DNA of 50,493 nt from Acetobacteraceae bacterium (lineage in GTDB: Bacteria; Pseudomonadota; Alphaproteobacteria; Acetobacterales; Acetobacteraceae): positions 1 to 50,493 of the forward strand of contig JANWJK010000303.1 in assembly GCA_025452005.1 (NCBI GenBank), written 5' to 3'. The position numbers and the translations under genes were made by a program. Shown in pieces: positions 2,933-32,820 of the stretch. Below the pieces are notes generated by a model, which was not told the DNA's origin, did no database searches, and saw only the letters and a program-made list of their open reading frames with translations. Each line of letters opens with the position of its first letter. Position 1 is the first letter of the stretch.

Positions 2933-2942
2933 CCGCGCAGTG

Positions 2943-2974: not shown

Positions 2975-2986
2975 GTCGAGCAGCGG

Positions 2987-3841: not shown

Positions 3842-3855
3842 TGGACTTTCTCCCT

Positions 3856-4209: not shown

Positions 4210-4220
4210 GGTCGGACCCC

Positions 4221-4559: not shown

Positions 4560-4616
4560 TCGGCTTTCTCCTCCTGATGTCGTCAGCGCGATACGCCCGC
4601 GCACGCCCTCCGGTCG

Positions 4617-6629: not shown

Positions 6630-6633
6630 TCCG

Positions 6634-7605: not shown

Positions 7606-8660
7606 CAGGCGGCTCCGCTCTGCATGGCCACACTCGCCAACCAGCAGCGTGCCGTTCGGCCGCCTTCCAGATTGAACTCGGGCGGCGTCTCCTTGTGGCA
7701 GCGATCGAATGCAGCCGGACAACGTGCGGCGAACGAGCAGCCACGCGGCAGCGACGAAAGGTCCGGCGGCTGGCCCTCGATCGCGGTCAGGCGGTTGCGG
7801 TTGTCGGTCATGCGCGGGATCGAGTTCAGCAGGGCCTTCGTGTAGGGATGCGCCGGCGCGTTGAAAATACGTGAGACCGGGCCGGATTCCACGACGCGGC
7901 CGGCGTACATCACAACGAGCTGGTCGCACATCTTGGCGACGATGCCGAGGTTGTGGGTGATGAAGATCAGTGCCAGCCCGTGTTCGCGCTGCAGATCGCG
8001 CAGCAAGCTCAGGTACTGCGCCTGGATCGTCAGATCGAGGCTGGTGGTCGGTTCGTCGGCGATCAGCAGGCGCGGCTCGCACGCAATGCCGATCGCGCCG
8101 ACGATGCGCTGCCGCATGCCGCCCGACATCTCATGCGGAAACTGCGTCACGCGCGTCTCGGGCGACGGGATACGCACCGCCTTCAGCAGATCGCACGCGC
8201 GACGCCAGGCCGCGGCCCGCCTGGTTCCCTCGTGCACCCGGATCGGCTCACCGACCTGGTTGCCGATGGTGAACAGCGGATTGAGCGACGCCATGGGGTC
8301 CTGAAGGATCATGGCGATGCGCTTGCCGCGCACATGCCGCATCTCGGTGTCGGTCTTGCGCACCAGGTCTTCGTTCTCGAACCACATCTGGCCGCTGACG
8401 ATCTGCGCCGCTGGCGGCAGCACGCGCAGGATGCTCAGCGCCAGCGTGCTTTTGCCGGACCCCGATTCACCGACGATGCCGAGGGTTTCGCCGGCGCTGA
8501 TGCGTAGCGACACGTCGTCCACCGCGCGTACGACGCGGGTGCCCTGCGCCGAGACGTAGTGGGTGGATAGATTGTCGATCTCCAGCAGCGGGCGGTTTGG
8601 CGTCGCCGCCACACCGCGCCTCGGATCAGAGCTGACGGAGCTGAGGGTCGAGTTTGACAC
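7605..8660 (-). CDS. Peptide-type ABC importer ATPase (DppD/OppD-like)
   Basis: A 351-residue ATPase paired with the DppF-like protein. Walker A GESGSGKST, signature MSGGMRQR, Walker B LLIADEPT and switch region ITHNLG are all present, and the C-terminus has the OppD-type GCSFAARCP cysteine block. The longest start is a GTG at 8660, which overlaps the permease gene by 35 bp. A GTG at 8612, just after the permease stop and preceded by GAGG, is an equally good start and would remove 16 poorly conserved residues. Confidence 0.92.
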   Translation of the reverse strand: MSNSTLSSVSSDPRRGVAATPNRPLLEIDNLSTHYVSAQGTRVVRAVDDVSLRISAGETLGIVGESGSGKSTLALSILRVLPPAAQIVSGQMWFENEDLVRKTDTEMRHVRGKRIAMILQDPMASLNPLFTIGNQVGEPIRVHEGTRRAAAWRRACDLLKAVRIPSPETRVTQFPHEMSGGMRQRIVGAIGIACEPRLLIADEPTTSLDLTIQAQYLSLLRDLQREHGLALIFITHNLGIVAKMCDQLVVMYAGRVVESGPVSRIFNAPAHPYTKALLNSIPRMTDNRNRLTAIEGQPPDLSSLPRGCSFAARCPAAFDRCHKETPPEFNLEGGRTARCWLASVAMQSGAA

Positions 8661-9519
8661 GGAGCCAGTCCCCCAGGAGGTTTGCGGAAAGCACCATCAG
8701 CATGATGCAGCAGCCAGGCAGCACGGTGAGCCACCAGTAGCCCACCATCAGTCCCTGCTTGCCGTCGGACAGCATCAATCCCCAGGCCGGCTTGGGCGGC
8801 GGGACGCCGACGCCGAGAAACGACAGCGACGCCTCGGTGACGATGACCACGCCGAGCATCAGCGTCGCCAGCACGATCGCCGAGTTCACCACGTTGGGCA
8901 GGATATGGCGCCGCATGATCGTCGCTTTCGAACAGCCCGCGACGATGGCGAGGCGGACGAACTCGCGTTCCTTCAGAGACAGCACTTCGCCGCGCACCAC
9001 GCGCGCGTAGCGCGTCCAATAGACCAGACCGAGTATGATGACGATATTCCACATGCTCGGGCCGACGATGGCGGCGAGGAAGATGGCGAAGGTCAGCGCC
9101 GGCAACGCGAGCCACGCGTCGGTGATACGCATGATCACCTGGTCGGCCCAGCCGCCCAGATAGCCTGCCAGGATGCCCAGAACGGTGCCGACGACGCCGG
9201 CGAAGATCACCGCGGTGAAGCCTACCACCATCGAGACCCTGGCGCCGAAGATCAGCCGTGACAGTACGTCGCGCCCCAACTGGTCGGTGCCAAGGATGTG
9301 GTCCATGGTCCCGCCGGTCTGCCAGAACGGCGGTTTGAAGCGCGCTGTCAGGGCGCCGACCTCCGGATTATGCGGCGCCAGGACGTCGGCGAAGATAGCC
9401 ATGAAGGCGATGACGGCCAGGATGATGATAGGGATCATCGGCAGATCGCCCAGCCGGCTCGCCGCCGAACGTGTCGATACCGACGGTGGAAGGACGATGG
9501 TCTCGCTTGACATGCTCAT
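8626..9519 (-). CDS. Peptide-type ABC importer permease (DppC-like)
   Basis: A 297-residue inner-membrane permease. After a short polar N-terminus there is a membrane helix (about 30-50), the family periplasmic loop with LGTDQLGRDVLSRLIFGAR, then further helices and the EAA-like coupling loop REFVRLAIVAGCSKATIMRR, which docks on the ATPases. The chosen ATG at 9519 lies 5 bp behind the DppB-like stop, with GGAGAAG upstream; an ATG two codons later is also possible. A longer upstream frame is only read-through of the preceding gene. Confidence 0.93.
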   Translation of the reverse strand: MSMSSETIVLPPSVSTRSAASRLGDLPMIPIIILAVIAFMAIFADVLAPHNPEVGALTARFKPPFWQTGGTMDHILGTDQLGRDVLSRLIFGARVSMVVGFTAVIFAGVVGTVLGILAGYLGGWADQVIMRITDAWLALPALTFAIFLAAIVGPSMWNIVIILGLVYWTRYARVVRGEVLSLKEREFVRLAIVAGCSKATIMRRHILPNVVNSAIVLATLMLGVVIVTEASLSFLGVGVPPPKPAWGLMLSDGKQGLMVGYWWLTVLPGCCIMLMVLSANLLGDWLRVKLDPQLRQL

Positions 9520-9524
9520 GGCTG

Positions 9525-10445
9525 TCACTTCTCCAGTCGGATGCGTGGATCGATCACGGCGTAGACGACATCGACCAGCAGGTTCACCACCACGATCATG
9601 GTGCCACCCATGATCACGATGCCCTGCACCACCGGGAAATCGCGGAAGCTGATACCTTCGTAGAGCAGCCGCCCGACGCCGGGCCAGGCGAACACGGTTT
9701 CCACCACGACGGCGACGTTGATCATCAGGACAAGATTGATCCCGGCCAGCGTCACCACCGGGATCAGCGCGTTCTTGAACGCGTGCTTGCCGATCACCCA
9801 CGACTGCGGCAGGCCCTTAAGCCGCGCCAGCTTCACGTATTCCGAGCCGAGGACCTCGAGCATCGACGATCGCGTGAGGCGCATGTGTGCGGCGGCGAAA
9901 TACCATCCCAGTGCGAAAGCCGGCATGAGGATGTGCAGCACCCCTCCGGACCCCGAGGACGGCAACCAGCCGAGATACACCGAGAACAACAGGATCAGCA
10001 CGAGGCCCACGAAGAACGAGGGCAGCGACAGACCCAGCAGCGCGAACAGCTTGCCCGCACTGTCCCAGAAGCGACCGACGCGCACCGCTGCGAGGATGCC
10101 GGTGGGAATGCCCACCGCCAGCGAAAACGCCATCGCCACCAGTGCCAGCAGAAGCGAATTCGGCAGCCGGTCGAAGTAGAGGTCGAGCACCGGCGTCTGG
10201 TAGTAGAACGACTGGCCGAAATCGCCGCGGAGCAGGCTCATCATGAACAGGCCGTACTGCGCCCAGAGCGGCTTATCGAGGCCGAACTTGTGATGGATTG
10301 CCGCGATGTCATCCTCGCTGGCGCCAGGTTCCACCAGCAGCGCCGCCGGATCACCGGTGACGCGGACGAAGAAGAAGATGGTCAGGGACAGTACCAGCAG
10401 CGAGAGCAGCGAATAGCCGAGCCGCCGTGTGACGAACTGCTTCAT
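9525..10445 (-). CDS. Peptide-type ABC importer permease (DppB-like)
   Basis: A 306-residue permease with the DppB-type N-terminus (MKQFVTRRLGYSLLSLLVLS) whose first helix is followed by a large periplasmic domain and a further membrane region. The coupling loop contains EYVKLARLKGLPQSWVI. It starts 11 bp after the third binding-protein gene and ends 5 bp before the DppC-like gene, so the five transporter components are one transcription unit. Together with the DppC-like protein it forms the channel. Confidence 0.94.
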   Translation of the reverse strand: MKQFVTRRLGYSLLSLLVLSLTIFFFVRVTGDPAALLVEPGASEDDIAAIHHKFGLDKPLWAQYGLFMMSLLRGDFGQSFYYQTPVLDLYFDRLPNSLLLALVAMAFSLAVGIPTGILAAVRVGRFWDSAGKLFALLGLSLPSFFVGLVLILLFSVYLGWLPSSGSGGVLHILMPAFALGWYFAAAHMRLTRSSMLEVLGSEYVKLARLKGLPQSWVIGKHAFKNALIPVVTLAGINLVLMINVAVVVETVFAWPGVGRLLYEGISFRDFPVVQGIVIMGGTMIVVVNLLVDVVYAVIDPRIRLEK

Positions 10446-10456
10446 GACGATGCCCT

Positions 10457-12001
10457 CTATGCGCTCTTCAGCGTGATGTCTTCGTAGGGGGCGGTATAGA
10501 CGAAACCCTTGATCAGGCCGAAGCCGGATTCCGCCAGCCGCGGCCCGACGCCGCTGATGAACGCAAGCTGCCAGATCGACACGTACATCGTCCGGTCATC
10601 GAGCAGGTGCTGCATCTTGGTCAGGATCGCCGCACGCTTGGCACGGTCCAACTCCACCGCCTGTAGCGGGAACAGCTCGTCGATCTCGGGGTAGCTGCCA
10701 TAGGCGTAGTTGCCGCCTTTGACAACGAACTCCTCCAGCCGCGTTGCGGCATTGCCGAACGCGCCGGACGCGCCCTGGATGATGTTCTTGTACTTCTTGT
10801 CGGCATAGCCCTTGAAGAACGCTGCGCGCTCCAGCGGCCGCAGCTTGGCGCGGATGCCGACCTCGCCGAGGTAGTTGATCACTGCCTCGCCGAGATTCGC
10901 GTAAGCCGCATCGCAGGTATAGAAGCCGGCATCGAAGCCGCCGGGATGGCCCGCCTCGGCAAGAAGCTGCCGCGCCTTGTCAGGATCGTACACCGGCGGC
11001 GCCAGCTTCTCGTAGAACTCGAAATTCTCCGGAATGACACTGCCCGTGATATGCGAATGGCCGAGCGTCAGCGCCTTGTTGATCGTGTTGTAGTCGAGCG
11101 CGAACTTCGTGGCCAGCCTTACCCGCTGGTCGTGCCACGGCGACTTCGGGTCCCACTGCTCGGGGAAATACATGTAGTAAGGCGCCGATCCGACCGTCGG
11201 CCGCAGCGTCAATCCCGGCGTACGCTGCAGCTCTTCCGCCAGCTCCGCACGGATCGAATAGGCGATATCCACCTCGCCGTTCTTGAGCGCGGCGAGCCGT
11301 GTCGACTCGTCGGGAATCACCTTCATCACGATCCGCTTCACGCTCGGCGTCTTGCGCCAGTAGCCGTCGAACGCCTCCATCACCAGTTCGATGCCCGGCG
11401 TGAACGAGACAAACTTATACGGCCCCGCGCCGATCGGCGCCTTCTTGAACCCGTCCTCGCCGACCTTTTCCACGTACTTGCGCGGCACGACCCAACCCGC
11501 GCCCGACGCAACGGTATAGAAGGTGATGAAATCCGGCCATGGGTTCTTCAGCTTGAACACGACACGCTGCGGATCGGGCGTCTCGACCGCCGCCACACGC
11601 TCCTTCAGCAGGCCATGCGCCGCGCCGCGATAGCGCTCGAAGGAGAACTTCACGTCATCGGCGGTAACCGGTTCGCCGTTGTGGAACTTCGCACCTTTGC
11701 GCAGCACGAACTCGTAGCTCAGTCCGTCCTCGCCGGCTGACCAGGATTCCGCCAGCGACGGCGATGGGTTGCCTTGCGGCATCGGCTTCGCCACCGCGTC
11801 GTGCAGCGCGTACAGCACCATGAAGGGCGTGATGATGCCGGCCGTCTCGGCCGGGTCGAGCCAGGTTGGAGCGAGCGTGATATGCACGCCCACGGTGAGC
11901 TGGCCCGAAGGCGCAGCTGCCTTCGCCGGGCGCACCGCGCCCGCTGCCATGCCCAGTGCGGCAAGCGCCAATACGTCGCGTCGCCGTGTCGTCACCGTCA
12001 T
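10457..12001 (-). CDS. Peptide-type ABC substrate-binding protein, paralogue 3
   Basis: A 514-residue family-5 solute-binding protein. The N-terminus TRRRDVLALAALG followed by a hydrophobic stretch and AKAAA fits a twin-arginine signal peptide with cleavage near residue 29. The mature part has the family landmarks KFHNGEPVTADDVKFSFERY and PIGAGPYKFVSFTPG. It is the third of three tandem relatives and lies directly before the permeases. Ligand is unknown: the family binds peptides, nickel, opines, sugars or xenobiotics. Confidence 0.93.
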   Translation of the reverse strand: MTVTTRRRDVLALAALGMAAGAVRPAKAAAPSGQLTVGVHITLAPTWLDPAETAGIITPFMVLYALHDAVAKPMPQGNPSPSLAESWSAGEDGLSYEFVLRKGAKFHNGEPVTADDVKFSFERYRGAAHGLLKERVAAVETPDPQRVVFKLKNPWPDFITFYTVASGAGWVVPRKYVEKVGEDGFKKAPIGAGPYKFVSFTPGIELVMEAFDGYWRKTPSVKRIVMKVIPDESTRLAALKNGEVDIAYSIRAELAEELQRTPGLTLRPTVGSAPYYMYFPEQWDPKSPWHDQRVRLATKFALDYNTINKALTLGHSHITGSVIPENFEFYEKLAPPVYDPDKARQLLAEAGHPGGFDAGFYTCDAAYANLGEAVINYLGEVGIRAKLRPLERAAFFKGYADKKYKNIIQGASGAFGNAATRLEEFVVKGGNYAYGSYPEIDELFPLQAVELDRAKRAAILTKMQHLLDDRTMYVSIWQLAFISGVGPRLAESGFGLIKGFVYTAPYEDITLKSA

Positions 12002-12014
12002 CTGCCGTCCTCCG

Positions 12015-13586
12015 CTAGGTGCTCTTCAGTGTCAGGTCTTCATAGGGCGCCGTATAGGGGAACCCTGCAATCCGGTCGAAATTGGACTCGCCGACGCGAG
12101 GTCCGACGCCATTGATGAATGCAAGCTGCCAGAGATGCGTGCCGATGACCCGCTCATAGAGGATCTCCTGCATCTTTGTCAGGATTGCCGCACGCTTGCC
12201 GTGGTCCAGCTCGACCGCCTGCTGCTCGAACATCGCGTCGAGATCGGGGTAGTTGCCATAGACGTAGGCACCGCCCTTCACGACGAAGGTCTCGAAGCGC
12301 GTCGCAGCGTTGCCGAACGAGCCGCTGCCCGCCTGAATGATGTTCTTCAGCTTCTTGTCCATGAATTGCTGATTGAACGAGACGCGCTCCAACGGCCGCA
12401 GCTTCGCGTTGATGCCCACCGCACCCAGGTAGTTGTTCGTCGCCTCGGCCAGGTTCGCGTACGAGCTGTCGCAATTGTAGAAGCCGGCATCGAAACCATC
12501 CGGGTACCCGGCGGTGGCCAGAAGCTGCTTCGCCTTTTCCGGATCGTAGACCGGCTCGGGCGGCTTCCAGAAGAATTCGAAGTTGTCCGGAATCAGGCTG
12601 CCATGGATGCGCGAATAGCCCGCGGTCAGCGCCTGGTTGATCGTCTTCAGATCGAGCGCCAGCCGCGCCGCCTGCCGCACACGCACGTCGTGCCAGGGCG
12701 ACTTCGCATCCCACTGTTCAGGGAAATACAGCCAGAACGGCGACTGGATGACCACCGGCTTCAGCGTCAGCCCTGGCGTCTGCCGCAGCTCCGCTGCCAG
12801 CTCTCCGCGGATGGAGTAGGCGATGTCGACCTCGCCATGCTTCAAGGCGGCCAGCCTCGTCGCCTCTTCGGGGATCACCTTCAACACCAGCCGTTTGACA
12901 CTGGGCACCTTGCGCCAGTAGCCCTCGTAAGCCTCCAGTACCAGTTCCACGCCGGGCGTGAACGACACGAATTTGTACGGTCCCGCGCCGATCGGCGCCT
13001 TCTTGAAGCCGTCGTCGCCGACCTTCTCGACGTACTTCTTCGGCACGACCCAGCCGGCGCCGGTCGTGGCGGCATAGAAGGTGAGGAAGTCCGGCCACGG
13101 GTTCTTCAACCTGAATGTGACGTGTCTTGCGTCCGGCGTTTCGACGGAGGCGACCCGGTCGTGCAGCGGTCCCTTGGCGGCACCATGGTAGCGCTCGAAG
13201 GAGAACTTCACATCCTCCGCTGTCACCTTCTCGCCGTTGTGGAACGTCACGCCATCGCGCAGCACGAAGCTGTAGGTCATGCCATCTTCGGTGGCCGACC
13301 AGGATTCAGCCAGGCTGTGCGCCATCAACTCGCCGGGCATCGGCTTCAGCACCGCATCGTGCAGCGCATAGTAGATCATGTAGGGCGTGACGAGCGACGG
13401 CGTCTCGGCGGGATCGAACCAGGTCGGCGCCAGGGAGATGTGCACCGCATAGGTCAGTTGGCCGGAAGCAGCGGCTACTGCTGGGCGCACGCCGGCGGCC
13501 ATACCAAGGGCTGCGAGCGCGAGAAGCTCGCGCCGCGTCGGAATAAGCCCGTTGCGACCGGGCGCGGACGTCACGTCGCGTTGCAT
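12015..13586 (-). CDS. Peptide-type ABC substrate-binding protein, paralogue 2
   Basis: A 523-residue paralogue with signal PTRRELLALAALGMAAG and an Ala-rich cleavage region, again Tat-like. It shares with both neighbours the FHNGE, FSFERYHGAA and PIGAGPYKFVSFTPG blocks and the C-terminal PYTAPYEDLTLKST ending. The ATG at 13586 follows GGAGGCAGG. Spacing is 19 bp from the gene before and 13 bp to the gene after. It probably feeds the same permease with a related ligand, or extends the range of ligands; that is inference from the layout. Confidence 0.93.
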   Translation of the reverse strand: MQRDVTSAPGRNGLIPTRRELLALAALGMAAGVRPAVAAASGQLTYAVHISLAPTWFDPAETPSLVTPYMIYYALHDAVLKPMPGELMAHSLAESWSATEDGMTYSFVLRDGVTFHNGEKVTAEDVKFSFERYHGAAKGPLHDRVASVETPDARHVTFRLKNPWPDFLTFYAATTGAGWVVPKKYVEKVGDDGFKKAPIGAGPYKFVSFTPGVELVLEAYEGYWRKVPSVKRLVLKVIPEEATRLAALKHGEVDIAYSIRGELAAELRQTPGLTLKPVVIQSPFWLYFPEQWDAKSPWHDVRVRQAARLALDLKTINQALTAGYSRIHGSLIPDNFEFFWKPPEPVYDPEKAKQLLATAGYPDGFDAGFYNCDSSYANLAEATNNYLGAVGINAKLRPLERVSFNQQFMDKKLKNIIQAGSGSFGNAATRFETFVVKGGAYVYGNYPDLDAMFEQQAVELDHGKRAAILTKMQEILYERVIGTHLWQLAFINGVGPRVGESNFDRIAGFPYTAPYEDLTLKST

Positions 13587-13605
13587 CGACCTGCCTCCGT
13601 TGCTG

Positions 13606-15177
13606 CTATGTAGTCTTCAGCGCGAGTTCCTCGTACGGCGCCGTATACGGGAAGCCCGGGATGTGACCGAAACTCGATTCCGCAACCCGTGGGCCCGTGC
13701 CGTTGATGAAGGCGAGCTGCCAGATCGGTGCGAAGATCGCCTTCTCGTGCACCATCTGCTGCATCTTGTGCAGGATCGCCTCGCGCTTTGCGTGATCGCC
13801 TTCGGATGCCTGCGTCGGGTAGAGCGCGTCGATGTCCGGGTAGCTGCCATAGGCGTAGGCGCCACCCTTTACAGCGAACTCCTGGAGCCGCGTCGCGGCA
13901 TTGCCGAACGCACCTGAAGACCCCTGGACGATGTTCTTGAACCCCTTGTCGCCGTAGCCCTTGTAGAACGCGGCACGCTCCAACGGACGCAGTTTGGCGC
14001 GAATGCCGACCTGTCCCAGGTTGTTGAGCACGGCCTCGGCAAGGTTTCCGTAGGATACGTCGCAGGTGTAGAAGCCCGCATCAAAGCCACCCGCGTAGCC
14101 GGCGGCGCTCAGCAGCTCCTGCGCCTTGGCCGGATCGTACACGGGTGCAGGCGGCTTCCAGTAGAACTCGAAGCTTTCCGGGATGATGCTGCCGGTGATC
14201 AGCGAATGCCCAAGCGTCAGCGCCTGGTTGATCGTCTTGTGGTCGATCGCCAGTGCGGCGGCCTGACGCACGCGCTGGTCATGCCACGGCGACTTCGGAT
14301 CCCACTGGTCGGCGAAATACAGCCAGAACGGCGACTGGATCACGGTGGGCCGCAGCGTCAGCCCTGGCGTGCGCTGCAATTCCTCCGCCAACTCGGCGCG
14401 GATCGAATAGGCGATATCCACCTCGCCGCGCTTCAATGCCGCCAATCGCGTCGCCTCGTCCGGAATCACTCGCAGCACCAGCCGATTTACGCTCGGCGGC
14501 CTGCGCCAATACTGCTCGAATGCCTCGAGCACCAGTTCGACCCCAGGGGTGAACGAAACGAATTTGTACGGCCCCGCGCCGATCGGCGCCTTCTTGAAGC
14601 CGTCCTCGCCGACCTTTTCAAGGTACTTCTTCGGCACGATCCAGCCGGCGCCGCTGGCCTCGGAATAGAACGTCAGGAAGTCGGGCCACGGGTCCTTCAG
14701 TCGGAAGCGCACATGCTGCGGATCGAGTGCCTCGACCGCCACCACGCGCTCCTTCAGCAGGGCGTGTGCCGCGCCACGATAGCGCTCGAAGGAGAATTTG
14801 ACGTCGTCGGCCGTCACCGGTTCGCCGCTGTGGAACAGCGCTTCCTTGCGGAGCACGAAGTCGTAGCTCAGCCCGTCTTCCGCCACTGACCAAGACTGCG
14901 CCAGACACAGTGCATGCGGCTGGCCGGGCATCGGCTTCACCACGCCGTCGTGCAGCGCATAGAGCAGCATGTACGGCGTAATGATCCCCTGTGTCTCGGC
15001 GGGATCGAACCAGGTCGGCGCCAGCGAGATATGCACGCCGTAGACAAGCTGCCCCGCCGCGCCGGCCGCCAAGGCCACGCGGGCGCCACCGCCAATCGCC
15101 GCCGATGCGGCAAGCGCGAATACGTCGCGGCGTGAAATCCAAGCGTTACCGGCGGGCGTGCGTCCGAACAGCCTCAT
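13606..15177 (-). CDS. Peptide-type ABC substrate-binding protein, paralogue 1
   Basis: A 523-residue binding protein, first gene of the importer operon. The start at 15177 is supported by GGGAGG a few bases upstream; the frame is open further back but without a family-like sequence. The signal has ISRRDVFALAASAAIGG, a twin-arginine form. The mature protein carries FHSGEPVTADDVKFSFERY and PIGAGPYKFVSFTPG, and it resembles paralogue 3 more closely by eye (for example in the ITGSIIPESFEFYWKPP and AAFYKGYGDK regions). A 67-bp gap separates it from the GT2 stop, so a promoter may lie there or transcription may continue from upstream. Confidence 0.93.
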   Translation of the reverse strand: MRLFGRTPAGNAWISRRDVFALAASAAIGGGARVALAAGAAGQLVYGVHISLAPTWFDPAETQGIITPYMLLYALHDGVVKPMPGQPHALCLAQSWSVAEDGLSYDFVLRKEALFHSGEPVTADDVKFSFERYRGAAHALLKERVVAVEALDPQHVRFRLKDPWPDFLTFYSEASGAGWIVPKKYLEKVGEDGFKKAPIGAGPYKFVSFTPGVELVLEAFEQYWRRPPSVNRLVLRVIPDEATRLAALKRGEVDIAYSIRAELAEELQRTPGLTLRPTVIQSPFWLYFADQWDPKSPWHDQRVRQAAALAIDHKTINQALTLGHSLITGSIIPESFEFYWKPPAPVYDPAKAQELLSAAGYAGGFDAGFYTCDVSYGNLAEAVLNNLGQVGIRAKLRPLERAAFYKGYGDKGFKNIVQGSSGAFGNAATRLQEFAVKGGAYAYGSYPDIDALYPTQASEGDHAKREAILHKMQQMVHEKAIFAPIWQLAFINGTGPRVAESSFGHIPGFPYTAPYEELALKTT

Positions 15178-15244: not shown

Positions 15245-15964
15245 TCACCCCCTTTCAGCGCCCGCCAGCGCAATCCGTGCAATCGTCAGGACGATGCGCC
15301 AGCCGGCTCGAATGCTGCCGCCCAGCGTGCCGGCCACCTTCGAGCTGCCGCCGGCGCGACACCGGTACGGCACCGGCAGTTCCAGGATCCGCAGGCCGGC
15401 GCGCGCCGCCTTCATCTGCATTTCGATGTTCCAACCGTAGGTGGTCTCGCGCATGTCGAGCCGGGCCAAGGCCTCGCGGCTGATGGCGCGAAAGGCGCAC
15501 ATGTCGGTGTAGCGGACCGCGTACAACCAGGACATCAGCCACCCCGCCAGACGTCCGGCAAGTACCTGGTGCCAGCACATCGAACCTGGTTCGCGTTTCC
15601 CTCGCACGCGCGAGCCAATGACGAAATCATGAGTGCCGGCGCGGATCGGCGCCACCAGCTCATCCGCCAGGTCGGCACGATCCGCGCCGTCGCCGTCAAG
15701 GAACAGGATGATGCCACAGCCCTCGCCCGCCGCCGCCGCGCCGGCGGCACAGGCGCGGCCGTAGCCTCGCTCCGCCAAAGTCACGACGCGCGCGCCGGTG
15801 GCACGTGCGATTGCCGCGGTTCCGTCGCTACTGGAGCTGTCGGCGACAATGATCTCGTCCACCACGGAGCGCGGAAGAGCCGCGATGGTGCCGGCGATCG
15901 TATCTGCCTCGTTGAGGGTCGGGATGACGGCAGCGACGCGGGTCAACGAGAAGGCCCGCGCCAA
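15245..15964 (-). CDS. GT2 glycosyltransferase, polyprenyl-phosphate hexose synthase type
   Basis: A 239-residue cytoplasmic family-2 glycosyltransferase. VAAVIPTLNEAD opens the GT-A fold, LFLDGDGAD is the metal/nucleotide-sugar DxD region, and the DMCAFRAISREAL, TYGWNIEMQMKA and GGSSKVAGT blocks match the group that makes dolichyl/undecaprenyl-phosphate sugars. I see no C-terminal membrane helices. The longest start is a TTG at 15964, right at the edge of a palindromic repeat; the fold would still be complete from a TTG about five codons later. It is the last gene of the eight-gene redox/glycosyl run, with the 107-bp repeat between it and the radical SAM gene. Confidence 0.87.
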   Translation of the reverse strand: MARAFSLTRVAAVIPTLNEADTIAGTIAALPRSVVDEIIVADSSSSDGTAAIARATGARVVTLAERGYGRACAAGAAAAGEGCGIILFLDGDGADRADLADELVAPIRAGTHDFVIGSRVRGKREPGSMCWHQVLAGRLAGWLMSWLYAVRYTDMCAFRAISREALARLDMRETTYGWNIEMQMKAARAGLRILELPVPYRCRAGGSSKVAGTLGGSIRAGWRIVLTIARIALAGAERG

Positions 15965-15965
15965 T

Positions 15966-16072
15966 TGTCATTGCGAGGAGCGAAGCGACGAAGCAATTTC
16001 CAGCCAGTTCCCCACTGGCATCAGCGCCACTCGGCTGGGGATTGCTTCGTCGCTTTGCTCCTCGCAATGACA
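15966..16072. repeat. Palindromic intergenic repeat, copy 2
   Basis: Two 32-bp arms, TGTCATTGCGAGGAGCGAAG onward (15966-15997) and the complementary 16041-16072 arm ending CTCGCAATGACA, differ at a single position and flank a 43-bp centre. It fills most of the space between two co-oriented genes (radical SAM stop at 16117, GT2 start at 15964), so the transcript would form a large hairpin there. Confidence 0.85.
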
Positions 16073-16116
16073 GGTTTCCTCCGCGCAATCCCGGCGCCGC
16101 ATGTCGGATTCCACAG

Positions 16117-17163
16117 CTAAAGACTCCACCGCATTCCGCATCCCGCACACGGCCGCGGCGGCGTTTCGCTCAGCAGCCCGGCGCGGAAGTCCTGGTATGC
16201 CGAACCGTTCCAGATCTCGCGCAACGTCTGCTGTGTCGCGTCGCCCAACGTGTAGCTGTCGTAGCCGCGCGCGGAGAACGGTGCCATGCAGCACGGCAGC
16301 GCGCGGCCGTGTGCCGTAAAATACATCAGCGACCACGGCCGGCGGCACGCCGACCAGGGCTGTGTCTCGTCCTGCCGTTTCAGGCTAAGGCCGGGCTCGG
16401 TCGCGCCGGATGCATCCAGCGTGATACCCAGATCGCGCGCCAGCGCCGCGGCAACCTCGATCGCGCGCGACTCATCGGCGCGCAGCGTCTCGAACAGCGA
16501 TGACTCGGGCCGTGCCAGGCCGTAGCCCGTCTCGTCATAGACCAGCCGCTGCAGGTACACCTCCCGCACGCCCATCGACGCAGCAAGCCGGACGAAGGCA
16601 GGCAGCTGTTCGATCGTCTCCTTCAGTCCGGTAAGCCACAGCGACACGCGCGGCGAAGCGGCACCGGTCGCACGCTGCAATTCGGTGAACCCGCGCACGT
16701 TGCGCACGATACGCTCGAAGAAATTCTTCCCGCGCACCGCAAGGAACGTCTTCGCATCCGCGGCATCCAGCGAAACGCGCAGCTCGTCCAGCCCGGTATC
16801 GATCATCGCCTGATACTTTTTCGGCGACAGCAGCGTGCCATTGGTATTGAACAGCACGTACACGCTTCGGTCCTTCAGGTAACGGATCATCCGCGGCAGG
16901 GACTTCACCATCATCGGCTCGCCAACGCCGTGCAGCACCACGCGCGCAACATCCGGTACCTGATCGACGATCGAGGTGAACAGCTCCCAGCTCATGTCCG
17001 CCGGCGGCTCAAGCGCCTCGAAGGTGCGCGGGCAGGTTTCGCACAGCAGGTTGCAGCGGTTGGTCACCTCGAGGTACAGGCACACTGGCGGCGCCGCGGC
17101 TTCGGTTCCGCGCGTCGTCTGCACGGCCTCGAAATAGCGGCGCGGATCCTTGACCACGGTCAT
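16117..17163 (-). CDS. Radical SAM/SPASM domain protein
   Basis: A 348-residue radical SAM enzyme. Cys37-x3-Cys41-x2-Cys44 binds the SAM-cleaving 4Fe-4S cluster, followed by the GVGEPMM and FNTNGTLL strands of the partial TIM barrel. The C-terminal third has a SPASM-like cysteine set (SACRRPWS, LPCCMAPF, PCAGCG) for auxiliary clusters. SPASM proteins modify peptides, proteins or small molecules; no precursor peptide is seen nearby. Its ATG shares ATGA with the stop of the preceding membrane transferase. It does not show the ArsS arsenosugar architecture as I recall it. Substrate is unknown. Confidence 0.9.
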   Translation of the reverse strand: MTVVKDPRRYFEAVQTTRGTEAAAPPVCLYLEVTNRCNLLCETCPRTFEALEPPADMSWELFTSIVDQVPDVARVVLHGVGEPMMVKSLPRMIRYLKDRSVYVLFNTNGTLLSPKKYQAMIDTGLDELRVSLDAADAKTFLAVRGKNFFERIVRNVRGFTELQRATGAASPRVSLWLTGLKETIEQLPAFVRLAASMGVREVYLQRLVYDETGYGLARPESSLFETLRADESRAIEVAAALARDLGITLDASGATEPGLSLKRQDETQPWSACRRPWSLMYFTAHGRALPCCMAPFSARGYDSYTLGDATQQTLREIWNGSAYQDFRAGLLSETPPRPCAGCGMRWSL

Positions 17164-18509
17164 TGTGCCCTCCGTATGGCCTGTCGCGGCGCTGGCAACC
17201 CGCGGCAGAGATCGATCGCCGCGAGGATCACGGCTGGAACATACACGGCGCCGGGCACTGCGAGATACTCGAAGGCGCCATGCGCCAGCAGTGGCGCGGC
17301 AGCCAGCATCCACAACACACTCGGCAACGGCGCAAGACAGGCGAGCGGCGCGAGCCAGCCGAGGTACCAGGGATAGTGTGGCGACAGCGCGACCAGAAGG
17401 ACGCCGCCCAGGATCACCGCCTGGCGTGCCTGCAACAGCACGCGCGGGCCTGCCGCTGCCGGCAGCGGGCCTGAAAAAACCATGCGAGCCGCCAGCGAGC
17501 CGAGCACGGCCAGCAGAAGTGCGAGGTAGACCTTCGATGCCCAGGCTGGAAGCGGCGTGACGTTCGCAAGAATCTGCAGCAGGAAGATGCCGCTGCCGCT
17601 GGCCAACCCTTCCTCGGAGAAATAGCCGGGCAGATAGCCGAGTACCTGAGGACCTATCAGCGAATAGGGCAGATAAAAGACGACCAGCGTCACCGCGAAC
17701 GCGATCGGCAACCGCCGGTCGGGCGGCCGCCAGAACGCTGGCAGTACCACAGCCGGCAGGAACTTCGTCAGTGCCGCCGCGGCGAGCACGACACCGGTCC
17801 AGAACCGACGCCCACGCACCGCAAGCAGCAGCGCCAGGGCCAGCAGACCAGCCGCCGCGCCATCGATGTGCGCATTGCCCGCGAACTCCCAGACCGTCAG
17901 CGGCAGCCATGCATAGATCAGCAGTTCCGCCGGATCGCGTCCGGCGACGCGGAGCAGCGCGATCAGCGCCCCGATCGCGAGCGCGTCGAACGCCGCAATC
18001 ATCAGCTTCATACCGAACACGCCCGGCGTCAGCGCCGCCGCCAGCGCGAAGATCGCCTGGGCGGCCGGCGGATACACCGTGCGTGCGGAATCGGCACGGT
18101 TCATGTGCTGATACACCGCCTCGTCGCGCAGAAAGGCGAGCGCATCATCGGCCGGCAGGTAGCGGTACGGGTTGATGCCGGCGAGCTGCACGCGGCCATC
18201 CCACACATACCGGTAGAGGTCGGACGACAGCACCGGCGGTGCCGTCAGGGTCAGCAGCCGCATCGCGGCCGCGACACCGAGTACCAGCCAGATCGCTCGT
18301 GGCGGCAAACGGCCGCGGCGGACGATGGCGACGGCGAGCAGCCACAGCGCGCCGGCGATGCAGAGACTGGCGACAAACGCCGCCAACCGCGTCTCATCGG
18401 CGAGGCCGATCGGCTGCCAGTCAAGCAACGCCAGCCCGCCCGCGACCAGCAGCACAAGCAGCACGCCGATCGCGGCGAGCATCGTCAGGCGACGCGCCGG
18501 ATCGGTCAT
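17160..18509 (-). CDS. Integral membrane glycosyltransferase (GT87/mannosyltransferase-like)
   Basis: A 449-residue multi-pass membrane protein with about ten hydrophobic segments. The first large loop contains SSDLYRYVWDGRVQLAGINP, a form seen in polyprenyl-phosphate-dependent hexosyltransferases, with acidic residues that could be catalytic. FLPAVVLPAFWRPP and SPHYPWYLGWLAPLA also fit that group. The ATG at 18509 forms ATGA with the upstream stop, and its own stop forms ATGA with the radical SAM start. A longer frame upstream lacks support. It could use the lipid-linked sugar made by the GT2 protein; this is inferred from context. Confidence 0.83.
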   Translation of the reverse strand: MTDPARRLTMLAAIGVLLVLLVAGGLALLDWQPIGLADETRLAAFVASLCIAGALWLLAVAIVRRGRLPPRAIWLVLGVAAAMRLLTLTAPPVLSSDLYRYVWDGRVQLAGINPYRYLPADDALAFLRDEAVYQHMNRADSARTVYPPAAQAIFALAAALTPGVFGMKLMIAAFDALAIGALIALLRVAGRDPAELLIYAWLPLTVWEFAGNAHIDGAAAGLLALALLLAVRGRRFWTGVVLAAAALTKFLPAVVLPAFWRPPDRRLPIAFAVTLVVFYLPYSLIGPQVLGYLPGYFSEEGLASGSGIFLLQILANVTPLPAWASKVYLALLLAVLGSLAARMVFSGPLPAAAGPRVLLQARQAVILGGVLLVALSPHYPWYLGWLAPLACLAPLPSVLWMLAAAPLLAHGAFEYLAVPGAVYVPAVILAAIDLCRGLPAPRQAIRRAQ

Positions 18510-19246
18510 TGCGCGGCGAGACTCATGCGCCCGCGCAATCCGTTGCGTTCGATCCATGCGTTGGTGGCCGGCGCGCCGTAGCCGCCATCTGCTCCGGCGA
18601 CGAGCCTGTCCAGTGAAGCCGCGTCATCCACGTCGTACCATGTGGCCAGCGTGACGGCAGCCAGGCCAAGCGCCTCCGCCCTTGACAGCGTCGCCGCAGC
18701 GACACCGTCCGTGCTCCAGGCGATGTCGGCGAACAGGTGCGCGTGAGGTTGTTTCATGCCCAACAGGTAGTAGCCGCCGTCGTCCGCCGGACCAAGTACA
18801 ATTCGATCGCCGGGTGCCAACAGCGCGCGTGCCGCTGCGACCAGTGCTTCGGTCGGTAACGTAGGGCTGTCGGAGTTCACCAGGCAGACAGCGCCGAAGC
18901 CCATTGCGAACAGCGCCTGCGCCGCATGCAGTAGGCACCGGCCGAAACCTCGGACGTCCGGCGGCATCGCCGGTGACCCGTCAGCGAGGACCAGGCCGGT
19001 ACCGGCTGCCAGATGTCCGGAAAGGCTTGCCTCGTCGCCTGCCGGCGCATAGGCGATGAACCCATCGATCGGCACGGTGCGCGCGGCCAGCGCGATGTTC
19101 TCGGTGATGTCGCGTAGGAACGCCGCACTCAGTGCCGCGGCCTGCGCGGGCCGAAGTGGCGGGCACAGCCGTGTCTTCGCCCGGCCAGGCAGCGGCGCCT
19201 TCGCCATGACGCCCATCGCGCACCTGGCTCCGCGGTCCACGCTCAA
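18506..19246 (-). CDS. DUF2064 protein (TIGR04282-like nucleotidyl/glycosyltransferase)
   Basis: A protein of up to 246 residues with a nucleotide-diphospho-sugar transferase fold. VMAKAPLPGRAKTRL near the N-terminus, VNSDSPTLP in the middle and GPADDGGYYLLG later are the family landmarks. The name given to TIGR04282 refers to arsenosugar synthesis, but no arsenic methylation gene is here, so that role is not supported. The longest start is a TTG at 19246 overlapping the previous stop as TTGA, in line with the other 4-base overlaps; the ATG at 19216 would also give a complete domain. Confidence 0.85.
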   Translation of the reverse strand: MSVDRGARCAMGVMAKAPLPGRAKTRLCPPLRPAQAAALSAAFLRDITENIALAARTVPIDGFIAYAPAGDEASLSGHLAAGTGLVLADGSPAMPPDVRGFGRCLLHAAQALFAMGFGAVCLVNSDSPTLPTEALVAAARALLAPGDRIVLGPADDGGYYLLGMKQPHAHLFADIAWSTDGVAAATLSRAEALGLAAVTLATWYDVDDAASLDRLVAGADGGYGAPATNAWIERNGLRGRMSLAAQ

Positions 19247-19947
19247 ATACCGCTGAACCAGTTGTAACCGCGATCGGTCCAGTAGCCTCGCGGCTGCTTA
19301 TCGGTCACATAGATCGCAGTGACGAATTTCGGGTTCTTGAATCCAAGCTTCGTCGGGATGCGGATCTTGAAAGGATAGCCATATTTCTGCGGCAGGATCT
19401 CGTCGGACAGACGGAATGCCATCAGCGTCTGCGGATGAAGCGCGGTCGGCATATCGATGCCCTCGTAATAGCCGTCGGCGCACTCGAAACCGACATAACG
19501 CGCAGTTGTATCGGCACCGATCCGCTCCAGGAAGCTGCGCAAGGGCGTGCCGCTCCACTTGCCGATCATGCTCCAGCCCTCGACACAGACATGACGCGTA
19601 ACCTGGCTCACCTGTGGCAGCGCATAGAGATCATCGATGGTCCAGGGCCGCTTGTTGTCGATCCTTCCGGCAAGCTGCAAGCGATAATCGGCAGAATTGA
19701 GGCGCGGTGCCTTCTCCGGTCCGTACCACGCATTGTAACGGAAATCCTTCACCGCCATCGCGTCGGGGAACTCCGGCGCCAGGCGGCTCCGACCGAAGAT
19801 CGCCGCCTGCACCTTGTCGTTCCATTGCGAGAAGCGTGCCAGTACGCGCTGCACCGAGTCATGATCGCTGAGGTCGCAACCGGCGAGCAGCGTCAACGCG
19901 CCGAGCGACAGGCCGCCGCGCAGCATGGGGCGTCTGGCGAGTGTCAT
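19243..19947 (-). CDS. YedY/MsrP-like molybdopterin oxidoreductase with lipoprotein-type signal
   Basis: A 234-residue molybdopterin-dependent oxidoreductase of the sulfite-oxidase fold. Cys121 in RHVCVEGWS is the expected molybdenum thiolate ligand; GTPLRSFLERIG, ADGYYEGIDM and the FKIRIPTKLGFKNPK segment follow as in YedY. The N-terminus has an ARRPMLRGG motif, a hydrophobic core and LLAGC with Cys24, so it looks like a Tat-exported, lipid-anchored periplasmic enzyme. It overlaps the cytochrome b start region and the DUF2064 gene by 4 bases each. Substrate may be a sulfoxide or another oxo-compound, but is not shown. Confidence 0.87.
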   Translation of the reverse strand: MTLARRPMLRGGLSLGALTLLAGCDLSDHDSVQRVLARFSQWNDKVQAAIFGRSRLAPEFPDAMAVKDFRYNAWYGPEKAPRLNSADYRLQLAGRIDNKRPWTIDDLYALPQVSQVTRHVCVEGWSMIGKWSGTPLRSFLERIGADTTARYVGFECADGYYEGIDMPTALHPQTLMAFRLSDEILPQKYGYPFKIRIPTKLGFKNPKFVTAIYVTDKQPRGYWTDRGYNWFSGI

Positions 19948-20621
19948 GGAAGCTTCTCCGAAGCATCCGCGTGGCGAAGTTCGGTGGCACGACCCACCAC
20001 CATGGCGAGCAGCGTACGAGGCACGATCAGCGTAAGGCCGACATGGACCAGCAGGAAGAAAACGATACCCGCCATCACGAGGAAGTGCACCAAGCGCGCG
20101 CCTTGGAATCCGCCGAACATCAGCTCGAGCGGATAGGTCTGTACCGGCTTCCAGATCGCGATGCCGGACAGGATCATCACCGCGACCGCGGCGAGCGCTC
20201 CCCAGTAGGCGGCCTTCTGCACGGCGTTGTACTCGCCGAGCCGATGCTCGAGCCGGAAACGCAACGCCGCGATCATGTCGTGCGTGACGGTGCGCGGGCC
20301 GACCGGCAGGAAGTCGCGCCGGAAATGGCCGGTGACGATGCCCCAGACCACGAACAGCACGTAGGCGACGAACAGGGTCCACATAGCGGCGAAGTGCCAG
20401 GCGATCGCCGTGGCGACGCCGGGATCGCCGTGACGGGCGAGCGAGGCCTCGCCATCGCCGCCAAGCGTCGCCCATTCCGGGAACGTCAGGAAAGCGAAGA
20501 TCGGGCTGGCGTTGTAGATGCGCCAGCCGCTGCCGATCATGATCAGGATCGACAGCGCCATCACCCAGTGCAGGATACGGCGCGACAGCGGATGACGTTG
20601 CTCGTCGTAGATCGGTGTCAT
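19944..20621 (-). CDS. Membrane cytochrome b (b561-type), electron partner of the molybdoenzyme
   Basis: A 225-residue membrane protein with four main hydrophobic segments. Candidate haem-axial histidines sit in the first helix (RILHWVMAL), in IAWHFAAMW and in the last helices (LVHFLVMAG, LLVHVGLT). This is the cytochrome b561/hydrogenase-type b subunit layout, not the ferric-reductase-like MsrQ usually paired with MsrP. It overlaps the molybdoenzyme gene by ATGA, so it most likely moves electrons between the quinone pool and that enzyme. Confidence 0.87.
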   Translation of the reverse strand: MTPIYDEQRHPLSRRILHWVMALSILIMIGSGWRIYNASPIFAFLTFPEWATLGGDGEASLARHGDPGVATAIAWHFAAMWTLFVAYVLFVVWGIVTGHFRRDFLPVGPRTVTHDMIAALRFRLEHRLGEYNAVQKAAYWGALAAVAVMILSGIAIWKPVQTYPLELMFGGFQGARLVHFLVMAGIVFFLLVHVGLTLIVPRTLLAMVVGRATELRHADASEKLP

Positions 20622-21337
20622 GCGATCGGCTCCATGCCTGCTGCCGCGAGCATATCCGTGGCGTCCTTGCTGGCCAGGAATGCGACAAAACCCTCGGGAT
20701 TCGGCCGCCGCGCCAGGCGCGTGACCGATGCCGCGTACAGCAAAGGAATCTGCACCGCGACGGGCACCGGCCGAATGACGATCAGTCCATCAGCCGCGCG
20801 GACGTCGGTCATGTACAGCAGTCCGCCCTGCGCGGATCCGATGGTGAGCAGAAACGCAACTTCGTCTGTATCGACGGCGCCAAGCGTTCGGTTTGGCCTG
20901 ATGTCGAGACGCGCCAGCAGTGCCGGGCCATCGATATCGGATGCCGGCGACGGATCGGGTACGGCGAAGGTGCGGTCGGTGGACGCCGTACCTTGCGGTC
21001 CGGCGATCACCAACGGATTGCGCCACTGCGCGCGCACAGCCGCAGAGACGACGCCGGCCTTCGCAGCCTGCTCCAGCGTCGTCGTCGTGGTGACCACGAT
21101 GTCGTTCTGAATGTCGCGCACCAGTTGCGGCAGGATCAGGCCGGGACCGGTTGGAAAAACGAAGACGCGCACACCGGATCGCGCCTTGTAGGCAGCGGCA
21201 ACCTTGCGCAGCGCCGGGGCGAGCGCGGTGTCGCAGGAGACGGAGAGGTCCACGGTGTCCGCCAGAGCGGACGAGCCGACGGCAGCCAGCGCCAGCAATG
21301 GCAGCGCGCGACGCCGGATGGTCATCGGACGGGCCAT
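20618..21337 (-). CDS. Orphan ModA/PstS-like periplasmic binding protein
   Basis: A 239-residue exported protein with a twin-arginine-like start (TIRRRALPLLALAAVG, cleavage after SALA). The mature part resembles the molybdate-binding group: SCDTALAPALRKVAAAY, then VFVFPTGPG and NPLVIAG. No ABC permease or ATPase accompanies it in this operon. It ends in ATGA with the cytochrome b start and begins directly after the DoxX-like stop. It may bind an oxyanion for the molybdoenzyme or act as an accessory redox-substrate carrier; both are guesses. Confidence 0.75.
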   Translation of the reverse strand: MARPMTIRRRALPLLALAAVGSSALADTVDLSVSCDTALAPALRKVAAAYKARSGVRVFVFPTGPGLILPQLVRDIQNDIVVTTTTTLEQAAKAGVVSAAVRAQWRNPLVIAGPQGTASTDRTFAVPDPSPASDIDGPALLARLDIRPNRTLGAVDTDEVAFLLTIGSAQGGLLYMTDVRAADGLIVIRPVPVAVQIPLLYAASVTRLARRPNPEGFVAFLASKDATDMLAAAGMEPIA

Positions 21338-21940
21338 TCATTTCACCCATGACAAGACGGCGGATGAAGCCGCGACGCCACGGTGCCGCGGCAGCGCATC
21401 GGCACCCAGCACGCGGCCCGGCGGATCGATGACGAACCACGCCTGGATCATCACCAGGAACATGTAGGTCCACGGCCACTCGTTATCCGCGGAATATAGC
21501 CCGAGCCACAGGTTGAGCCCCATCAGCAGGCCCAGCAATGCACCCGCGCGGGAAAGCAGCCCCAGCAGCAGCGACACGGCAATCGCCAGTTCCACCAGAT
21601 AGACCAGGGGACCGAACACGGCGAGATTGGGCAACACGATGTCGCGCACCAGCGCGCCCTGCAGCGCGATCGCGGCGTGGTCCGCCTCCTGCTGCATCCA
21701 GAACTTCAGGCCGTCGAAATTGGGCGGCACCTTCCACAGGGTCTGCTGCCACCACATTGCGCCCATCAGCATCCTGAGAGCCCAGACGCCGATGTTACGC
21801 GGCGAGCGCTGTGCGGGATCGCGTCGCCATACCAGCATGGCCGTGACGATACTGGCCAGTAACAGCAGCCAGAACACCGGCGTGAACCAGCCTGGCTGGG
21901 TCAGGAAATGGGCGGCGTCGTGCAACGGGTTCGGCCGCAT
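21338..21940 (-). CDS. DoxX-like membrane protein
   Basis: A 200-residue protein with about four membrane helices. After a short N-terminus and a first helix (FTPVFWLLLLASIVTAML), the region RMLMGAMWWQQTLWKVPPNF and the two helices around YLVELAIAVSLLLGLLSRAG are DoxX/DoxD-like, as in thiosulfate:quinone oxidoreductase small subunits and MauE relatives. The ATG at 21940 follows GGGGAGACATGCC. It is the first gene of the run of eight, immediately followed by the ModA-like gene. Family assignment rests on the hydrophobic pattern and a few residues, so it is moderate. Confidence 0.72.
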   Translation of the reverse strand: MRPNPLHDAAHFLTQPGWFTPVFWLLLLASIVTAMLVWRRDPAQRSPRNIGVWALRMLMGAMWWQQTLWKVPPNFDGLKFWMQQEADHAAIALQGALVRDIVLPNLAVFGPLVYLVELAIAVSLLLGLLSRAGALLGLLMGLNLWLGLYSADNEWPWTYMFLVMIQAWFVIDPPGRVLGADALPRHRGVAASSAVLSWVK

Positions 21941-22038
21941 GGCATGTCTCCCCTGATTCTGGCTCCGGCCACCTGAACGGTGGTCTCGCGACACCGGCGG
22001 ACGTTACAACCCGGATGGGCGGCCCGACAGGAGACGGC

Positions 22039-22839
22039 ATGGGCGAGCGCGACGAGGCACCGAACCCTCTGGCAGCGAAGACATACGACGCGCCGTCGGT
22101 GTTCCTGCCGGAGAATCTGCTGCGTGAGGCACGCCGTCAGCGTGGGCTGCCGGAAGCGCCGGTGCCAGCGGTGTGCGCACTTGACCCGGACGGCGACGTC
22201 GTGCGGGCGCTGCGGGGGGCCGGGCAGTCGCGGCCGGCGAAGGGCTGGGCCTGCTATCACACCGAAATGGATGTGACGGAGCATGCGGGAATCACTGTGG
22301 GGATCGTGGGACTCGCGGTAGGAGCACCATTCGCGGTGCTGGTGGCGGAGCAGTTGTTCGTCTCCGGCTGCAGGCTGCTGCTCAGCGTGACCTCGGCCGG
22401 TCAGGTCGTTCCAATGGGGCCGACACCATATTTCGTGCTGATCGACCGTGCGTTGCGCGACGAGGGGACCAGCCATCATTACCTGCCGCCGTCGACCTTG
22501 GCTGCGGCGGATGCCGCGCTGGCGGATCGTGTCTGGCCGGCGCTCGCCACGCTGCGGGTCCCGGTGCATCGCGGCACGGCCTGGACCACCGATGCACCGT
22601 ATCGGGAAACCGAGGATTCGATCGCCGTGGCCCGCGCATACGGTGCGCTCGCAGTGGAAATGGAGGCCGCGGCGCTCTACGCATTCGCTCGGGCGCGGCA
22701 GCGCGACGTGCTGTGTTTTGCGCACGTGACCAACAGGATGGCCATCGACGAGGGCGACTTCGAGAAAGGTGAGGCAGATGGTGCACGGGACTCGCTCGAC
22801 GTGATCGCTGCGGCCGCGCGTGCCTGTGGTTACGCATGA
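22039..22839 (+). CDS. Purine/uridine nucleoside phosphorylase
   Basis: A 266-residue PNP/UDP-family phosphorylase for salvage of nucleosides with phosphate. The signature VEMEAAALYAFA contains the Glu-Met-Glu ribose-binding motif, and HHYLPPS, RGTAWTTDAPYRET and the final helix fit the family. The ATG is set at 22039 because CAGGAGACGGC directly precedes it; the same frame is open 24 bp further back. It diverges from the DoxX-like operon over 98 bp and is followed by a GST-like gene after 18 bp. Base preference cannot be told from the sequence by eye. Confidence 0.85.
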   Translation: MGERDEAPNPLAAKTYDAPSVFLPENLLREARRQRGLPEAPVPAVCALDPDGDVVRALRGAGQSRPAKGWACYHTEMDVTEHAGITVGIVGLAVGAPFAVLVAEQLFVSGCRLLLSVTSAGQVVPMGPTPYFVLIDRALRDEGTSHHYLPPSTLAAADAALADRVWPALATLRVPVHRGTAWTTDAPYRETEDSIAVARAYGALAVEMEAAALYAFARARQRDVLCFAHVTNRMAIDEGDFEKGEADGARDSLDVIAAAARACGYA

Positions 22840-32777: not shown

Positions 32778-32820
32778 TGTCATTGCGACAAGCGAAGTGA
32801 CGAAGCAATCTCCGGCCAGT
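32778..32820. repeat. Palindromic repeat family, single arm, copy 3
   Basis: This segment begins TGTCATTGCGACAAGCGAAG and continues to GACGAAGCAATC, matching one arm of the repeat at 15966-16072 with a few changes. The opposite arm is not present, so this looks like a decayed or half element. It starts 3 bp before the DUF3445 start codon and therefore occupies that gene's leader. Confidence 0.65.

Follow-up and report, generated by a model that had tools for sequence, protein, structure and literature searches.

An eight-gene operon and its divergent neighbour

The window analysed here is a 50,493-nt stretch of DNA from an Acetobacteraceae bacterium (GCA_025452005.1, contig JANWJK010000303.1; the source genome is 74% complete). 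It contains an octet of genes, all on the minus strand and transcribed from position 21940 down to 15245, which encode, in this order, a DoxX-like membrane protein (DoxX), a ModA-like periplasmic binding protein (SBP), a cytochrome b561-type membrane subunit (CytB), a molybdoenzyme (MoOx), a DUF2064 protein, a GT87-like membrane glycosyltransferase (GT87), a radical SAM/SPASM protein (rSAM) and a GT2 glycosyltransferase (GT2) (Table 1). Gene coordinates and profile searches bear out both the genes and the order of transcription given in the original prediction, as well as its account of the junctions: five are 4-base overlaps (four ATGA, one TTGA), and at the DoxX/SBP junction TGA directly abuts ATG. 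Terminator-like sites over the operon region occur at chance level only, and the scan found none between the MoOx and DUF2064 genes, where a stop would have told against the original prediction.

The remaining junction, rSAM/GT2, is the gapped one, with 152 bases in the window. Most relatives have a 4-base overlap at this position, so the gap looks like a lineage-local insertion. It is nearly filled by a 40-nt inverted repeat (15966-16005 and 16033-16072, 93% complementary), whose palindromic unit, CATTGCGAGGAGCGAAGCGACGAAGCAAT, has a further, diverged copy at 32779-32809; judging from this arrangement, the repeat element probably inserted into, and broke, an ancestral overlap. A gap of 162 bases is found at the same junction in another locus, L034.

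The list of eight genes, correct in itself, missed a ninth, which encodes a protein of the nucleoside phosphorylase/nucleosidase family PF01048 and starts 74 bases from the DoxX start in the opposite direction. The intervening bases are likely a promoter region common to the two divergent genes; a scan of this stretch for the sigma-70 consensus gave no match.

Table 1 Genes and other features of the operon region, with positions in the window
Feature	Position	Strand	Evidence or remark
DoxX/DoxD-superfamily membrane protein	21338..21940	-	commonest core neighbour
ModA-like periplasmic binding protein (SBP), no transporter adjoining	20618..21337	-	PF13531 76.2 bits
Cytochrome b561-type membrane subunit (CytB)	19944..20621	-	PF01292 89.6 bits, cut-off 30.1
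MsrP/YedY-like molybdoenzyme (MoOx), predicted lipoprotein	19243..19947	-	PF00174 105 bits
DUF2064, nucleotidyltransferase-like GT-A protein, core	18506..19246	-	TTG start; PF09837 83.3 bits, cut-off 25.8
GT87-like GT-C membrane glycosyltransferase, core	17160..18509	-	PF09594 26.4 bits, cut-off 25
Radical SAM/SPASM protein (rSAM), twitch-like C-terminal domain, core	16117..17163	-	PF04055 56.3 bits, PF13186 53.5 bits
GT2, polyprenyl/dolichyl-phosphate sugar synthase-like, core	15245..15964	-	TTG start, later TTG possible; PF00535 70.6 bits
Inverted-repeat element, rSAM/GT2 gap	15966..16072		inverted-repeat search, junction comparison
PF01048 nucleoside phosphorylase/nucleosidase-family protein	22015..22839	+	PF01048 96.7 bits; divergent from DoxX
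Intergenic stretch, 74 bases, DoxX to PF01048 gene	21941..22014		gene coordinates

A four-gene core shared by two phyla

Loci with the rSAM gene were gathered from genome sets, genome contigs and plasmids, 41 in all including the window (hereafter labelled L, with genomes labelled G); many are short contigs, so that counts of neighbouring genes are lower bounds. The conserved unit at these loci, which belong to Alphaproteobacteria and one actinobacterium, is DUF2064–GT87–rSAM–GT2, usually with DoxX, and the full octet is a lineage-specific build. The octet had been put forward as a coupled unit; the linkage of its redox pair does recur in several lineages, but only the four-gene core is conserved. 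A literature search found no description of the operon or of the core, no paper on DUF2064 and none on TIGR04553.

Wherever an alphaproteobacterial contig is long enough, the four core genes stand together in the same order, except in L015, discussed below, and in L038 (genome G019, 236-10873), where the rSAM gene is split into distant pieces, GT87–DUF2064 lies apart, GT2 was not found and CytB–MoOx is retained; the core of L038 appears to have decayed. The 4-base overlaps DUF2064>GT87>rSAM>GT2 are present in most alphaproteobacterial loci and are not due to chance, because they are found again in lineages far apart. The actinobacterium, Miltoncostaea oceani, has these families in a single cluster with a different gene order. 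The most conserved core protein is rSAM, with 64-77% identity within Alphaproteobacteria and 46% to Miltoncostaea; the identity of GT87 among loci is about 34-50%.

Two glycosyltransferases and a nucleotidyltransferase-like protein

The best solved relatives of the GT2 protein are dolichol-phosphate mannose synthase (DPMS, 5mlz), GpgS and ArnC; against the AglJ profile TIGR04182 it scores 125.9, under the cut-off of 325. The GT87 protein has about 12 hydrophobic segments, and its AlphaFold model (pLDDT 88) resembles ALG3 (VIA-align Z 24.3), GPI mannosyltransferase I (22.9), ALG6 (19.5), ArnT (19.2) and PimE (17.8), the first 47 structural matches all being GT-C transferases or close kin (PIG-U), users of lipid-linked sugar donors. 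Judged by the GT-C fold of this model, GT87 is a transferase rather than a flippase, and of the two roles first suggested for the membrane protein, flipping or transferring the product, only the second is retained. In Miltoncostaea the two enzymes are fused in a single protein of 651 residues (GT87 at 135-347, GT2 at 436-548), which argues that they act together. With a synthase-like GT2, a GT-C fold in GT87 and this fusion, the glycosyl half is coherent and agrees with the lipid-linked sugar pathway that had been proposed.

The pair recalls the PimE GT87, ArnC/ArnT and DPMS/ALG3 pathways, in which a GT2 synthase charges a lipid phosphate and a GT-C transferase uses the charged lipid, although the GT87 of the window is only 14-16% identical to PimE. 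We know of no GT-C polyprenyl-phosphate pathway in which a radical SAM/SPASM enzyme, a DUF2064 protein and a nucleoside phosphorylase are part of a coupled operon.

The DUF2064 protein, whose KTRL and DGGYY motifs are kept, has as relatives 3cgx (a putative nucleotide-sugar transferase) and the guanylyltransferase CofC/FbiD. Its Miltoncostaea counterpart is fused to a NUDIX domain of the NudE type, a domain combination that suggests nucleotide-diphosphate chemistry near DUF2064. Public annotation labels this part of the core arsenosugar synthesis, after the family TIGR04282: the window protein scores 132.6 bits against that profile, 1.4 under the cut-off of 134, and one Methylobacterium copy is annotated with its name. 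Synthesis of an arsenosugar or another organoarsenical would use a similar logic of radical SAM enzyme, nucleoside phosphorylase, nucleotidyltransferase and GT2. We nevertheless consider this exceedingly improbable: the arsenosugar enzyme ArsS (TIGR04167) is over cut-off in 0 of 21 core genomes (as a control, the search found it in one reference genome; the window genome, at the completeness given above, was among those searched), no arsM was seen beside the core, and GT2 scores 49 against TIGR04283, whose cut-off is 182. The evidence does not support the label. Of the two papers found on TIGR04282, one mentions it only as a flanking gene.

A radical SAM/SPASM protein and a candidate nucleoside-cleaving partner

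The rSAM protein passes the Pfam cut-offs for both of its domains (Table 1). Its CxxxCxxC motif and C273, C291, C292, C339 and C342 are invariant as far as Actinomycetota, and it ends in CG(L/M)RWSL. The structural model aligns over its length with SkfB, DesII, BlsE, PqqE and SuiB (Z 18.6 to 20.5). The best NCBIfam match is TIGR04317 (W-oxidoreductase maturase), at 138.2 bits against a cut-off of 380 and in the radical SAM half only; TIGR04311 is matched as well.

Peptide-acting relatives raise the alternative of a glycosylated peptide-derived redox cofactor, for which a SPASM enzyme would modify a small peptide encoded elsewhere, the glycosyltransferases would decorate it and the redox proteins would use it. 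The SPASM domain, a fold as near to SkfB, PqqE and SuiB as to the sugar enzymes, and the redox partners within the operon all speak for such a cofactor. There is also a precedent in mycofactocin, described as a redox cofactor derived from a peptide, with MftF as its glycosylating enzyme (PMC7491314). However, the window operon has no room for a precursor gene, with junctions that overlap or span fewer than 155 bases, the families found in the library scans include no RRE (peptide-binding) domain, and GT87 is an enzyme of the lipid-carrier type. The neighbourhood screen had a minimum of 70-80 aa, so that shorter peptides at other loci would be missed. On balance, a peptide cofactor seems a rather unlikely product.

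The product of the divergent gene keeps the VEMEAA signature of its family and the D/R motifs, and has an Asn at the catalytic position, like the purine nucleoside phosphorylase (PNP) of T. thermophilus; with the Arg-to-Ser change described below, the enzyme could be either a phosphorylase or a hydrolase. Nine other loci have a clear orthologue near the core and a further one a weak relative, and by this sequence comparison the PF01048 gene is a recurrent member of the gene set. Pairs of a radical SAM enzyme and a nucleoside-cleaving enzyme operate in hopanoid synthesis (HpnH/HpnG), in the futalosine pathway (MqnE/MqnB) and in ArsS arsenosugar clusters. The window shares with these systems the PF01048 partner of the radical SAM enzyme and the handling of a sugar downstream. 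Its proteins are not orthologues of HpnH/HpnG or ArsS by profile scores (the PF01048 protein scores 27.6 against HpnG TIGR03468, cut-off 187.1, and the HpnH model gives 36.3, under its cut-off of 225.05), and they differ also in the SPASM domain of rSAM.

An optional redox attachment

At least 22 of the 41 loci have a DoxX-like gene close to the core, and Miltoncostaea has an annotated DoxX besides. Against DoxX PF07681 (cut-off 23.6) the window copy reaches 18.3 bits; its orthologues in L035 and L037 reach 29.1 and 26.3. CytB–MoOx adjoins the core in 11 of the 41 loci (the window, L015, L026, L027, L028, L029, L032, L034, L038, L134 and L135), and nearly every MoOx locus examined has CytB as well; CytB is predicted to be the quinol/electron partner of the molybdoenzyme. 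The SBP is clear at two loci, the window and L034, while L015 has a weak relative (27% identity); the window protein scores 21.2 bits against ModA TIGR01256, under the cut-off of 62.5.

The best solved relative of MoOx is YedY (1xdq), and C121-V122-E123-G124-W125, which includes the Mo-ligand Cys and aligns with CVEAW of YedY, is invariant in nine sequences. An LAGC lipobox is present, and the enzyme is therefore predicted to face the periplasm. As in MsrPQ (YedYZ), a sulfite-oxidase-fold molybdoenzyme with a CVE(A/G)W motif accompanies a membrane haem subunit, but the window enzyme is a predicted 234-aa lipoprotein with a cytochrome b561-type partner instead of MsrQ, and its 94 bits against MsrP NF003767 are under the cut-off of 207.

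How tightly MoOx is tied to the core differs among lineages. In the window's order, 7 of the 8 core genomes have a MoOx match, versus 26 of the 142 without the core (p = 1e-4, not corrected for kinship). In the genus g305, the CytB–MoOx pair is present in 59 of 60 genomes irrespective of the core (11 of 60), and genome G088 has the core with no MoOx match; MoOx as an obligate core partner was rejected on these grounds. The MoOx alignment (A2) was made from linked copies and its scores favour those; the tree described next is independent of these scores. In a maximum-likelihood tree of 49 MoOx sequences, the 11 core-linked copies and one unlinked copy lie on one side of a branch with support 82/80, the other 37 falling outside. 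The clade has two deep branches spanning several families, and its sole unlinked member comes from G109, whose core is on another contig.

Two explanations of the shared transcript have to be weighed here. The first is that two unrelated modules happen to be cotranscribed in some lineages, and that the redox pair is a general periplasmic reductase of S-oxides or N-oxides which plays no part in the glycosyl pathway. The halves do occur apart, as the g305 genomes and G088 show, and MoOx overlaps DUF2064 only in the window and L015; elsewhere 3-148 bases or an additional gene separate the two. Yet the core-linked MoOx copies form one clade whose sole unlinked member is from a core-bearing genome, and the linkage persists in the window's order, in Hyphomicrobiales and on Methylobacterium plasmids; chance association thus seems unlikely. 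The second explanation makes rSAM a maturase of the molybdoenzyme, which the glycosyltransferases would also serve. It draws on the TIGR04317 and TIGR04311 matches, the common operon and the linked MoOx clade, but is very unlikely given the low TIGR04317 score confined to the radical SAM domain, the absence of MoOx from most loci and, in g305 and G088, MoOx and core each present without the other. The redox–glycosyl link is therefore real, because core-linked MoOx copies form one clade, though optional; by the tree and the spread of linked loci, it looks old and kept rather than accidental. Separation of the two halves in related genomes, which the original prediction took as telling against their connection, is thus found alongside a linkage that recurs.

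Other genes around the core

In g305 and L042 the core is flanked by relatives of Rv1679, Rv1680 and Rv1681, which also lie beside it in Miltoncostaea and which in mycobacteria are parts of the Rv1678-Rv1681 module. Within g305, the 11 genomes out of 60 that carry the core are precisely those that carry the Rv1681 family (p = 3e-12, not corrected for kinship). None of the 150 genomes of the window's order, the window's own included, has this family, which is therefore a lineage-specific attachment; the mycobacterial module differs further in that a plasmid locus carries it without the core. At this locus (L149, Mycolicibacterium vanbaalenii, 5029-12945) relatives of Rv1678-Rv1681 lie beside CcdA, a disulfide oxidoreductase, a TrsS/Tes-like radical SAM protein and a DVU_1556-type methyltransferase, possibly a second radical SAM module. 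The Rv1680-family PhnD-like protein of L063 (3964-4842) seemingly has no signal peptide and may, on that basis, work in the cytoplasm as a binding protein or an enzyme instead of forming part of a transporter. By their titles and abstracts, the papers found on Rv1679-Rv1681 are biomarker or omics papers only.

Selenium genes also adjoin the core at some loci. In L020 it is accompanied by a second radical SAM gene, a SelD fusion and an ABC transporter of the selenate type; L018 and L024 have part of this set, and in Miltoncostaea selA, selB and selD adjoin it. In the window's order SelD is found in 5 of 8 core genomes versus 11 of 142 without the core (p = 3e-4, not corrected for kinship). These associations would fit a selenium-containing product or cofactor, which we consider highly improbable: SelD is absent from all 11 g305 core genomes and from 3 of the 8 in the window's order, and a search of the SelD loci of that order for core genes found none, placing SelD outside the cassette. 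Selenium as a requirement was rejected accordingly, and at most selenium is an add-on.

A protein resembling aminotransferases dependent on pyridoxal phosphate (relatives GntC and VioD) adjoins the core in L033 (11244-12458, with an export-like N-terminal stretch), L134 (15746-16972), L135 (15750-16970), L026 and L027. Between GT2 and DoxX, 12 g305 genomes encode a methyltransferase-like protein whose N-terminus is signal-like (L059, 11271-12029). Directly downstream of GT2 in the window, at 10457-15177 on the minus strand, are three similar oligopeptide/glutathione-type ABC substrate-binding proteins in tandem (the one scanned is SBP_bac_5), followed by permease and ATPase genes; this array was not seen with the core at other loci.

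A model for the pathway

The best-supported reading is lipid-carrier glycosylation, by GT2 and then GT87, which a radical SAM reaction in the cytoplasm and a nucleotidyltransferase would supply and to which a redox step in the periplasm could be added. In its fuller form, the proposal is that the operon encodes a glycoconjugate pathway that depends on polyprenyl phosphate and includes a radical SAM step, extended in the window lineage by a periplasmic redox branch; it stands at about an even chance. In the cytoplasm, rSAM would modify a small substrate, probably one containing a sugar or nucleoside. The PF01048 enzyme would then cut an N-glycosidic bond, releasing adenine either from the intermediate or from spent 5'-deoxyadenosine, and the DUF2064 protein would convert the sugar phosphate so formed into an activated nucleotide derivative. 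GT2 would load the activated unit on polyprenyl phosphate, and GT87 would transfer it to an acceptor at the periplasmic face, where DoxX, together with CytB and the lipoprotein MoOx in the window lineage, would reduce or oxidise the product or the acceptor. We infer each catalytic step, the substrate and acceptor, the direction of electron flow and the sequence rSAM, phosphorylase, DUF2064.

Several observations weigh against this pathway. The GT87 protein of the window is barely over the PF09594 cut-off (26.4 versus 25; the fused Miltoncostaea relative reaches 32.4), and L015 has a core without GT87. The rSAM model is of moderate confidence (pLDDT 71), and its fold, as modelled, is equally near to the sugar-acting BlsE and DesII and to the peptide-acting SkfB, PqqE and SuiB, with no split by substrate. 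The PF01048 gene is absent from many loci, and in its product a Ser replaces one phosphate-binding Arg of PNPs, so that phosphorolysis is not assured. MoOx and the SBP are not present at most core loci.

A more specific version of the pathway would make the glycosyl donor from S-adenosylmethionine: the rSAM product or 5'-deoxyadenosine would lose adenine through the PF01048 enzyme, DUF2064 would convert the remainder to a (5-deoxy)ribosyl nucleotide donor, GT2 would pass the unit to polyprenyl phosphate and GT87 would install it outside the cell. We regard this as distinctly unlikely; if true, it would add a new class of glycosylation, one that draws on radical SAM chemistry.

The core, kept in order with its overlaps across Alphaproteobacteria and present in an actinobacterium as a cluster with fused domains, speaks for a genuine pathway. 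Co-occurrence in g305 ties this core to the mycobacterial Rv1678-Rv1681 module, and the plasmid copies in Methylobacterium radiotolerans and M. aquaticum, L134 and L135, offer tractable and harmless hosts in which to look for the product. Overall, a gene set of two phyla, joined in some lineages by a redox enzyme, appears to build an unusual sugar-like group, load it on a membrane lipid carrier and attach it outside the membrane.

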